A stretch of 64,000 nt of DNA from Clostridia bacterium (GTDB lineage: Bacteria; Bacillota; Clostridia; Oscillospirales; CAG-382), in contig JAFYPA010000089.1 of the NCBI GenBank assembly GCA_017560085.1, positions 62,001 through 126,000 on the forward strand, given 5' to 3'. The position numbers and the translations under genes were made by a program. Below the pieces are notes generated by a model. The model did not search any database and was not told the DNA's origin. It saw only the letters and a list, made by a program, of their open reading frames with translations. The first letter of the stretch is position 1. Each line of letters opens with the position of its first letter. Of the stretch, positions 10,512 through 13,664 are shown in pieces.

Positions 10512-11597
10512 ATGAAGCTTTGGAACAAAATCGAGCACAAGACATACACGGCTCTTATTTCCGAGCCCGAAATTCATATTGACAACAAAAAAAGAGGAAG
10601 AAGCGGTCATATGTCGCACGCAATGACTGAATTTCTTCCCGACACGATAATAGACTTCAACTCCAATTGCTCGCCCATAAGATGCTCGGGACATTCGGCT
10701 TACGGATGGATAGAATACAAGATTTCGACGGATGCGGGTGTTACCTATTCCGAGTCCCGTGATTTCCGCTATTCGGTGAAGTCTCTTGAGGACGGAATGT
10801 ATACGATTTCCGTTGAAAAGGCTGTTACCTGCGATGACGGTACGGTTGTTGCGTTCTGCCTTAAAAACGACACGCTGTTTGAGATTTGCTGTCAGCCGTG
10901 GTTTACTCCTTGTGCTGTCAGAAGTACAGACGGATGCAAGAGCTGGGAAGAGCCTGTTGAGGTTTCCCCCTTTGACGGAAGAATTTATGATGCGAGATAT
11001 CACGACGGAGTAATTTACGCATACGAATTCTGCAACAGCTCAAGAAACGATGACGGTACAATGGGCAACTGGACGGGAAACAAGCCCGAGCATTTATACA
11101 GAATTTTCACAAGCACGGACAGCGGTAAGACATTTAACGAGCATTGTGTTGTTCCCTTTGACAGTACATTCGGCAGGGCTTACGGAGCTATGATTTTCGA
11201 TGATGACGGAGTTCTTCACGCTTATGCGTATGACATAAACAACGAGGAAAATATGGATCACATCATTTCCCGTGACTGCGGAAAGAGTTGGGAAAAGTCG
11301 CAGAAGTGCTTTGTTGCGAAGGGTATAAGAAATCCTCAGGTGAACATTATTGACGGTGTATTTGTTCTTCAGGGACGAGGAAGCAAGGGCAAGAGCTTTG
11401 TTTTGTACACATCTCTTGACGGACAGAACTGGGATGAGGGTATTTACCTTGAGAAGGAAAAGGGTGCTTGCTACTACTCCAACAGCATTGTTCTGAACGA
11501 CCCCGAGGGTGGAAAGAGGTTGCTTGTGCAGTTCTCCGATACCTTTGAGGCGGCGAGAGTTAATGTTATGCATATGTGGGTGAAGATAAAGAAGTGA
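10512..11597 (+). CDS. Sialidase-like (BNR/Asp-box) beta-propeller protein, copy 1
   Basis: A 361-residue protein with at least five Asp-box-like repeats (S-x-D-x-G-x-T/S-W/F): STDAGVTYSE, STDGCKSWEE, STDSGKTFNE, SRDCGKSWEK and SLDGQNWDE. These mark a six-bladed sialidase-type propeller. There is no signal peptide, so the enzyme should act inside the cell on imported oligosaccharides. The canonical sialidase arginine triad is not obvious to me, so it may act on a related acidic sugar or be another propeller hydrolase. A close paralogue follows at 11687, and its end lies in a heptamer repeat. The neighbouring esterase and GH28-like genes point to one glycan pathway. Confidence 0.72.
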   Translation: MKLWNKIEHKTYTALISEPEIHIDNKKRGRSGHMSHAMTEFLPDTIIDFNSNCSPIRCSGHSAYGWIEYKISTDAGVTYSESRDFRYSVKSLEDGMYTISVEKAVTCDDGTVVAFCLKNDTLFEICCQPWFTPCAVRSTDGCKSWEEPVEVSPFDGRIYDARYHDGVIYAYEFCNSSRNDDGTMGNWTGNKPEHLYRIFTSTDSGKTFNEHCVVPFDSTFGRAYGAMIFDDDGVLHAYAYDINNEENMDHIISRDCGKSWEKSQKCFVAKGIRNPQVNIIDGVFVLQGRGSKGKSFVLYTSLDGQNWDEGIYLEKEKGACYYSNSIVLNDPEGGKRLLVQFSDTFEAARVNVMHMWVKIKK

Positions 11598-11649
11598 ACA
11601 GTGGACAAGGGACAGTGGACAGGGAAGGTTGATTGCTTCGCAATCTTCA
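11594..11649 (+). repeat. Heptamer array plus hairpin, copy A
   Basis: Period-7 units GTGAACA, GTGGACA, AGGGACA, GTGGACA (11594-11621) run over the stop codon of the upstream gene. They are followed, after GGGAAGG, by a hairpin GATTGC-TTC-GCAATC (11631-11645). The 22 bases at 11628-11649 recur exactly at 12811-12832, again right behind a period-7 array of different sequence. Confidence 0.75.
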
Positions 11650-11686
11650 TTGGGATTTTAATTGATTTGGTTAGTGAGGTGGATTT

Positions 11687-12790
11687 ATGAAAATCTGGAA
11701 TAAGCTTGATCATGAGAAATATGCGGCTGTGATGTATGAGCCGGAGATGTATGTGGATAATGAGGCTCGCGGGAGAAGTGGGCATATGAGCCATGCGCTT
11801 TGTGAGATTGCGCCGGATACTATTGTGGATTTTAATTCCAACTGTTCGGCGGTTAGATTCAGAGGGCATTCGGCGTTCGGTTGGGTGGAATACAGGATTT
11901 CGACCGATGCGGGAGTTACCTATTCGGAGCCTTGTGTTTTTTCTTTTTCCAAGAAGGCTTTTGAGGAGGGTATATTCAGCGTTTCCGTTGAAAATGCGGT
12001 TTGCTGTGATGATGGGACTGTTGTTGTAACTTGTCTTCGCAACGATATGCTTGGAGCTATCTGCTGTGAGCCGTGGTTTACGCCTTACGTTTGCAGAAGC
12101 ACGGACGGATGCAAGACATGGGAAGAGGCATACGAGCTTTCGCCCTATGCGGGAAGAGTTTATGATGCTGTTTACAAGGACGGTGCGATATACATTATAC
12201 TTCTTTGCAACGATGCGAGAAAGCCCGAAAGACACGAGGGTGGGCTTACCGAGTCCTTCTGTGCTTCCCGTCCCGAAGACGTTTACAGAATATACAAGAG
12301 TACGGACAGTGGAAAGAGCTTTTCTGAGCTTTGTGTTGTACCTATGGAAAGCACCTTTGGAAGAGGGTACTGTCAGCTTAAGTTTGATGAAGATGGCAAG
12401 CTGCATTTCTTCTCTTACAACAGCTTAGATGAGGTGAATATGGATCATCTCGTTTCGGATGATAATGGTGCGACTTGGGAAACCGTAAAGCCCTGCTATC
12501 TTGAAAAGGGCATCAGAAATCCGCAGGTCAACATCATTGACGGCATATGGGTGCTTCACGGCAGAGCGAAGGGATTCAAGGGATTTGTATTCTACACCTC
12601 CGAGGACGGATACACCTGGGACGAGGGTGTTTATCTTGAGACGGAGAAGAAGCAATGCTATTATTCTAACAACATTGTAGTTAAAGACCCCGACGGTGGC
12701 AAGAGGCTTCTTGTTCAGTTCTCGGATGCATATGAGGAAGCTCGTGTCAATGTTATGCATATGTGGGTGAAGATAATGCATAATGCATAA
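11687..12790 (+). CDS. Sialidase-like (BNR/Asp-box) beta-propeller protein, copy 2
   Basis: A 367-residue paralogue of the preceding gene, with the same opening pattern (MKIWNKLDHEKYAAVMYEPEM against MKLWNKIEHKTYTALISEPE) and Asp-boxes STDAGVTYSE, STDGCKTWEE, STDSGKSFSE, DDNGATWE and SEDGYTWDE. It has no signal peptide. The duplicates differ mainly in loops, including an extra PERHEGGLTESFCASRPED insertion here, so they have probably diverged in substrate. The last codons are built from an ATAATGC heptamer array: copy 1 ends in KIKK whereas this one ends in KIMHNA, so the repeat appears to have rewritten the C-terminus. Ribosome site AGTGAGG precedes the start. Confidence 0.72.
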   Translation: MKIWNKLDHEKYAAVMYEPEMYVDNEARGRSGHMSHALCEIAPDTIVDFNSNCSAVRFRGHSAFGWVEYRISTDAGVTYSEPCVFSFSKKAFEEGIFSVSVENAVCCDDGTVVVTCLRNDMLGAICCEPWFTPYVCRSTDGCKTWEEAYELSPYAGRVYDAVYKDGAIYIILLCNDARKPERHEGGLTESFCASRPEDVYRIYKSTDSGKSFSELCVVPMESTFGRGYCQLKFDEDGKLHFFSYNSLDEVNMDHLVSDDNGATWETVKPCYLEKGIRNPQVNIIDGIWVLHGRAKGFKGFVFYTSEDGYTWDEGVYLETEKKQCYYSNNIVVKDPDGGKRLLVQFSDAYEEARVNVMHMWVKIMHNA

Positions 12791-12832
12791 TGCATAATTC
12801 ATAATCGGAAGTTGATTGCTTCGCAATCTTCA
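12773..12832 (+). repeat. Heptamer array plus hairpin, copy B
   Basis: Five period-7 units, ATAATGC three times, then ATAATTC and ATAATCG (12773-12807), overlap the 3' end of the sialidase-like gene. The hairpin GATTGC-TTC-GCAATC follows at 12814-12828. The 22 bases at 12811-12832 are identical to copy A. Confidence 0.75.
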
Positions 12833-12863
12833 ATTTTAAAAAATTTATAAAGGAGATATAGTT

Positions 12864-13664
12864 ATGATTAACGAGGTTGTTTATTTGAGAGATGAGGATA
12901 AGAGTGTTACTCTTGAGACTTATGTGGCTACGGATATTGATCACAGCAAGAGAAGTGCGGTTCTGGTATTTCCCGGTGGCGGGTATTCTATTTGTGCTCA
13001 TCATGAGGGTGAGAAGATTGCGCTTCAGTATTTTGCTGCGGGTATCAATGCGTTTGTGCTTAAGTATTCCGTAAAGAGCAATAATCCCGATATGAAGTAT
13101 CCTATGCCTCAGGTGGATGCTTCAAATGCTATGAAGTACATTAGAGACAATGCGGAGAGATTCAATATTGACAAGGACAAGATTTTTGTTCTCGGCTTCT
13201 CTGCGGGCGGTCATCTTGCAAGTACTATGGGTACTATCTGGCATAGACCCGAAATTTACGAAAAGGCACAGCCTATGGAATACGGATACAACAAGCCCTC
13301 GGGTATGATTCTCTGCTATCCCGTTATAAGCTACAGCAACTTCGGTCACAAGGGCTCGTTCCACAATCTTTGCGGTGCGGGACTTCCCGTGGAGGAATAT
13401 CAGAAGTACAGCTCCGAGCTTAATGTTGACGAGCGCACCTGCCCCGCTTTCCTCTGGCACACATCCAACGACGGAGGAGTTCCGGTTGACAATTCGCTTG
13501 TAATGGCACTTGCCCTTAAAAAGCAGGGAATCAAATTTGAAATGCACGTATACCCCGACGGCAAGCACGGACTCGGACTTCCTAACGAAGATGAGCAGAA
13601 TATTCCGATGATGCACATATCCGAATGGATGGAAAACTCTATAAAGTGGGTTAAGAGTTTTTAA
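12864..13664 (+). CDS. Alpha/beta-hydrolase, acetyl-esterase/acetylxylan-esterase-like
   Basis: A 266-residue serine hydrolase of the COG0657 type. It has the oxyanion-hole motif FPGGGYSICAHHEGE at about residue 34, the nucleophile elbow GFSAGGH at about residue 114, a likely catalytic Asp in TSNDGGVPVDNS and His in PDGKHGLGLP near residue 235. No signal peptide, so a cytoplasmic deacylase, most simply removing O-acetyl groups from imported sugars. It is the third gene of the sialidase-like set. Some sialic acids are O-acetylated, which would fit. Start ATG at 12864 behind AAGGAG. Confidence 0.8.
   Translation: MINEVVYLRDEDKSVTLETYVATDIDHSKRSAVLVFPGGGYSICAHHEGEKIALQYFAAGINAFVLKYSVKSNNPDMKYPMPQVDASNAMKYIRDNAERFNIDKDKIFVLGFSAGGHLASTMGTIWHRPEIYEKAQPMEYGYNKPSGMILCYPVISYSNFGHKGSFHNLCGAGLPVEEYQKYSSELNVDERTCPAFLWHTSNDGGVPVDNSLVMALALKKQGIKFEMHVYPDGKHGLGLPNEDEQNIPMMHISEWMENSIKWVKSF

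Follow-up and report, generated by a model that had tools for sequence, protein, structure and literature searches.

Inverted heptad arms in a Clostridia genome and their proposed relation to S23-type intervening sequences

Intervening sequences (IVSs) of rRNA genes encode S23/IVP, a four-helix-bundle protein (PF05635). The 23S IVS of Coxiella shows three tandem heptamers before the S23 ORF and is excised by RNase III; a pentameric S23 homologue has been reported, and the same paper calls the origin and function of rRNA IVSs and of their S23 protein unclear (PMC4990558). The repeats analyzed here share with IVSs the pairing inverted ends, a gene for the S23 four-helix bundle, heptamers next to this ORF, and a location in 23S rRNA. 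In contrast to IVSs, their ends are dispersed in intergenic DNA and occur also within RNase P RNA and 16S rRNA. Most copies are devoid of an S23 gene, other genes are present in some, and many consist of one arm only.

REPs, REPINs, and BIMEs, elements linked to RAYT, are likewise short, intergenic, high-copy hairpins that are often arranged as inverted pairs. Here, however, period-7 arms lie outside the hairpin, the GTAG tag is lacking, the hairpin is not conserved, and RAYT is not needed. MITEs resemble the repeats as short non-autonomous units with inverted ends, but the ends found here are unconserved heptad arrays, no parent transposase was found, and S23/IVP is what the gene-bearing relative encodes. 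MITEs would share conserved terminal inverted repeats with a parent that bears a transposase, and no transposase was encountered among the arm-enclosed genes examined. The STRR heptamers of cyanobacteria are intergenic tandem heptamers as well, for which we know of neither a hairpin plus inverted-array architecture nor a link to S23. The TAACTGA repeats of Beggiatoaceae also consist of intergenic tandem heptamers, although the abstract of the source reports neither a paired hairpin and inverted-array architecture nor an S23 link (PMC4679880).

The present analysis concentrates on a window, i.e. the whole analyzed DNA stretch of 64,000 nucleotides, from a Clostridia bacterium. Its two repeat copies, A and B, are read here, with a probability of roughly 80%, as solo, gene-less arms of an element family of the IVS/S23 type.

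Copies A and B and the repeat in the host genome

Both window copies (Table 1) are intergenic, unlike the family members found in rRNA, and lie in the same orientation. The initial annotation had reported 22 identical bases in the two copies and an array B that supplies the last codons of a protein; both statements were confirmed, and the two composites lie at the positions given there. The common bases are GTTGATTGCTTCGCAATCTTCA, and the ORF of sialidase-like gene 2 takes its last codons and its stop from array B (ending in ...VKI-MHNA, then stop), whereas the stop codon of sialidase-like gene 1 is located inside the first heptad of arm A. Both arrays were detected by TRF. Neither copy has an S23 gene or ORF, nor an inverted partner within the window. 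Copy A folds no better than its shuffles (z 0.01), and copy B reaches a z of -1.6.

Table 1. Window coordinates of copies A and B and of the adjacent host genes
Feature	Position	Strand	Basis
BNR/sialidase-like gene 1, host gene upstream of A	10512..11597	+	PF13088
Arm A, five heptads GTGAACA GTGGACA AGGGACA GTGGACA GGGAAGG	11594..11628	+	sequence, TRF, heptad register
Copy A, 22-base block common to B; stem-loop GATTGC-TTC-GCAATC at 11631-11645	11628..11649	+	
Arm A, AT-rich inner tail TTCATTGGGATTTTAATT, extent estimated	11646..11663	+	comparison with other copies, inference
BNR/sialidase-like gene 2, host gene between A and B, end from B	11687..12790	+	
Arm B, ATGCATA x3, ATTCATA, then ATCGGAAG	12776..12811	+	sequence, TRF
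Copy B, 22-base block common to A; stem-loop at 12814-12828	12811..12832	+	
Arm B, AT-rich inner tail TTCAATTTTAAAAAATTT, extent estimated	12829..12846	+	comparison with other copies, inference
Alpha/beta-hydrolase (BD-FAE-like) gene downstream of B	12864..13664	+	

The host genome, comprising 3.1 Mb in 128 contigs, was examined by stretches and by pattern searches. The hairpin GATTGCTTCGCAATC occurs there in 49 exact copies, compared with none for the reversed-sequence control. All 49 copies were read, and nearly all show the same order: the period-7 array comes first, followed by a linker that ends in GAGGTT, GGAAGG-TT, or similar, then the hairpin, and finally AT-rich sequence as a tail. 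Within 214 kb around the copies, 49 period-7 tandem runs were counted, while any other period was met at most three times, except for the multiple 14. Given 49 copies versus none and the excess of period 7, this architecture is beyond chance. It is also much more general than first described, and neither of the two refuting outcomes named by the initial annotation was observed: many further copies exist, and in nearly all cases their flanks carry period-7 structure. A perfect hairpin follows within the next 45 bp in 62 of 90 arrays, and 10 of the 90 have one upstream; for random 45-mers, the value is 3%.

The array classes ATGCATA, ATGCACA, GTGGACA, GTGAATA, and GGAACTA draw on a common pool of hairpins (90 arrays), with the stems GATTGC, GATTCC, GGAAGC, GGAAAC, GATTTCC, GAAAGC, and others taking the same position. 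Array class and hairpin assort freely. Since the classes share this varied pool, hairpin and heptamers vary to the same degree, and what persists is the architecture alone. The initial annotation was right in stating that the heptamers change whereas their length, period, and position stay constant, which holds across the copies, but its fixed hairpin had to be given up, and variable heptamers being added beside it found no support, each array class being a dispersed family.

Each arm typically comprises five heptads, followed by TT and the hairpin. When anchored two bases before the stem, five heptads are the commonest length (37/74 host arms), the fifth of them being degenerate and often ending in GG; the number per arm ranges from three to eight, with 13 in one arm. 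The tag before the stem is usually GGTT or GGTG, in place of the GTAG or CGTC at the foot of REP hairpins. ATGCAAA-type arrays (L018, L124, L130, L136, L014) often have a CGGTGC-hairpin next to their opposite side; this is a further mosaic repeat family of the host genome. A related but distinct array type, found at L264 in genome G174, forms dense clusters of TTGACA/GTGGACA heptads that are joined by GGGGACGG linkers.

Inverted pairs, complete elements and S23/IVP genes

The degenerate pattern (RTGVAYA)3 is present in 25 of the order's 197 genomes, compared with a handful of single hits for the reversed control, and in 8 of 398 genomes across the phylum, sets that include many draft assemblies. 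Three of the eight phylum-set positives are the host, one further member of the order, and one genome of the same class. Array-rich genomes of other families harbor complete elements in which two inverted arrays, often differing in heptad class, enclose a single central hairpin.

Most arms occur in inverted pairs, and adjacent arms tend to face each other. In the host sample, 13 convergent versus 4 divergent pairs were counted, three of the latter resting on hairpins that we consider doubtful. Further loci, mostly from other families, yielded 32 convergent versus 12 divergent adjacent arrays, and 18 versus 1 for arrays less than 60 bp apart. Inverted pairs enclose nothing, an unrelated single gene, or an S23/IVP gene (PF05635), the last exemplified by a convergent pair in genome G180 around a four-helix-bundle S23/IVP gene. 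Single genes between some host pairs encode a NUDIX protein, a GNAT acetyltransferase, an EamA transporter, or an HTH protein with a zinc ribbon; another pair encloses a 131-residue protein with weak likeness to DUF5071, and others are empty or contain nested repeats, including GTAG-tagged hairpins. No transposase was found among the examined genes between inverted arms.

A complete element of the host (L301) consists of five GGAACTA-type heptads, TT, GAAAGC TTC GCTTTC, an S23/IVP gene, and the same arm in inverted orientation, the two arms being near-identical. These arms align in register with copies A and B and with the ends of the NUDIX and GNAT cassettes, an invariant A recurring at 7-base intervals, and arms of the same type also bound the NUDIX cassette. 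The predicted fold of this element is one arm-to-arm stem. Complete elements fold with z from -9.0 to -2.9; in an element from another family (L232, z -9.0), each heptad contributes about six base pairs and a single mismatch. A host S23/IVP protein has a PDB match to 2rld, which comprises five chains.

Such elements are also located in genes for structural RNAs. Three copies reside inside 16S rRNA (L093, L094, L095), and S23/IVP elements occur in 23S rRNA (L350, L356, L361), the latter being classical IVSs. Another S23/IVP element with heptad arms interrupts RNase P RNA (L359; gene 1501-1818, RNA 1229-2003), and in five genomes S23/IVP elements are situated just upstream of tRNA-Leu (L273, L277, L278, L280, L294). 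The 16S rRNA copies lie in the V1 region with a long hairpin on each side; these flanking hairpins match their partner within a genome and differ between genomes.

Of the order's 197 genomes, 94 have PF05635, as do 19 of its 25 array-positive genomes (Fisher p 0.003, hand count). The remaining six array-positive genomes gave no PF05635 match, one of them being 47% and another 75% complete. Genome G000 combines 7-8 PF05635 matches with 207 matches of the array pattern. In an independent reverse test, PF05635 genes were gathered by protein search alone, followed by inspection of their flanks. Period-7 arrays lie beside 20 of 47 PF05635 genes of the order (0/32 control genes of the same loci) and beside 20 of 30 in a second, phylum-wide set mostly from outside the order (controls 2/21), both control-ORF sets being small. 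Periods 5, 6, and 8-10 scored 0 or 1 in these flanks. Arrays border 28 PF05635 genes on both sides, and 25 of these 28 pairs are inverted.

Another type of flank is seen at roughly half of the PF05635 genes from the order; here, short motifs lie between several hairpins, and a 7-mer occurs at least three times (23/27 versus 2/20 controls). At L302, L303, L305-L308, L314-L317, and other loci, the motifs ATTTCAT, ACTTCAC, AGCTAAA, and ATGAATT alternate with several different perfect hairpins. This second type looks like a sister architecture with repeats interleaved instead of tandem.

Matching sites in a relative and competing explanations

Genome G001, the only other genome of the same genus among the relatives searched, has about 75-83% DNA identity to the host. 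As the initial annotation had suggested, the orthologous loci were compared. Copy A is found at the same place, with diverged heptads and an unchanged hairpin, whereas the junction of copy B is empty and sialidase-like gene 2 runs on without the array; the comparison sets no far boundary for B, because the sequence beyond differs in G001. Two solo arms on another host contig are missing between the same two genes, the NUDIX cassette is missing where its two flanking genes overlap, and the region of the GNAT cassette is likewise missing at the matching site. A target-site duplication is illegible at the empty sites, because the compared species have diverged, and the two genomes fit either an insertion in one line or a precise loss in the other. 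The small element that had been proposed is upheld as a putatively mobile unit, present or absent at matching sites of relatives.

An assignment to a REP/REPIN-like family moved by a host RAYT, where GGTT plus the hairpin would be the REP and the heptads its passengers, draws on the inverted hairpin pairs, as formed by REPINs, and on the distribution of RAYT matches (E<=1e-10), which are commoner in array-positive genomes (11/25 versus 30/172). A RAYT-like gene is located between ruvA and ruvB (L142 1392-1935; NF047646 76.9 bits, cut-off 80). The association is partial, however. The array-rich genomes G055, G175, G180, G111, and G126 yielded no RAYT match, period-7 arrays flank 0 of 14 RAYT genes, the tag differs from GTAG, and true GTAG-tagged hairpins form a separate group in the host genome, some of them nested inside heptad elements. 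Such an origin is hence very unlikely. The RAYT-like reading frame of L142 contains a GTAG-tagged hairpin sequence itself, and GTAG-type repeats occur elsewhere in the same genome.

It is highly improbable that the arrays are fixed cis-regulatory sites bound by an RNA- or DNA-binding regulator of the neighboring genes. They occur in both orientations relative to flanking co-directional gene pairs (19 sense, 11 antisense), enclose S23 genes or unrelated cargo as inverted pairs of arms, and are missing at orthologous sites within the same genus; orientation and empty sites do not fit a regulatory site, even though the arrays are intergenic and lie near stop or start codons, and even though regulator binding has already been proposed for the TAACTGA repeats (PMC4679880).

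Little likelihood is left for arrays generated by repair or slippage, with heptamers arising de novo beside a fixed hairpin. The number of heptads does vary, and Coxiella strains differ by one heptad, so slippage does alter array length (PMC4990558). Yet the adjoining hairpin is not fixed, the arrays occur as inverted pairs and as units present or absent, and the recurrence of the same few heptad classes throughout the genome means that arrays arise by copying and not afresh at every site. A CRISPR or an IS, already dismissed by the initial annotation, does not come into question, as there is neither a repeat-spacer array nor a transposase between the arms.

The proposed element and its biological meaning

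The reading preferred here regards the window arrays as arms of a larger element with inverted arms, which in its complete form contains a gene for S23/IVP. Points against it are the lack of an S23 gene and of a partner arm at A and B, their common direction, the fold of A at the level of its shuffles, the excess of array matches over PF05635 matches in G000, the array-positive genomes that gave no PF05635 match, and the second flank type of PF05635 genes. The complete element would be built from about five heptads, TT, a short hairpin, an inner part, the inverted hairpin, TT, and the inverted heptads, and the inner part would be empty or hold an S23/IVP gene (PF05635) or one unrelated gene. 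The two heptad arrays may pair into a long stem, either in the transcript or in single-stranded DNA, which would make the inserts tolerable even in RNase P RNA and in 16S and 23S rRNA, in the way of classical IVSs, which RNase III removes. The arms would be constrained solely in their period and self-complementarity, leaving the sequences of heptads and hairpins free to drift and to recombine. The units would move as such, S23/IVP would drive or assist this movement in trans, and solo arms would be remnants of full elements after a deletion, or partial copies of them.

More tentatively, and with the odds rather against it, a pentameric S23/IVP ring might bind five-heptad arms with one heptad per subunit and move or insert any DNA or RNA bounded by them, single cargo genes included; the targets would be intergenic sites and genes for structured RNAs, and no classical transposase would be involved. 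The correspondence between five heptads and a pentamer is a suggestion, and arms of three to eight units are seen as well. The literature searched on heptanucleotide repeats, 16S V1 inserts, and Avd/S23, subscription papers excepted, contained no description of a rule of inverted period-7 arms.

Inverted period-7 arms constitute a general structural rule, which ties classical IVSs to small gene cassettes and to intergenic repeats that number in the hundreds. The rule accounts for unassigned tandem heptamers in many genomes of the phylum, and S23-type inserts are able to sit in RNase P RNA. It makes testable whether S23/IVP recognizes heptad arrays and moves what lies between them, and the arm architecture offers a lead on how the long-puzzling rRNA inserts are built and how they spread.
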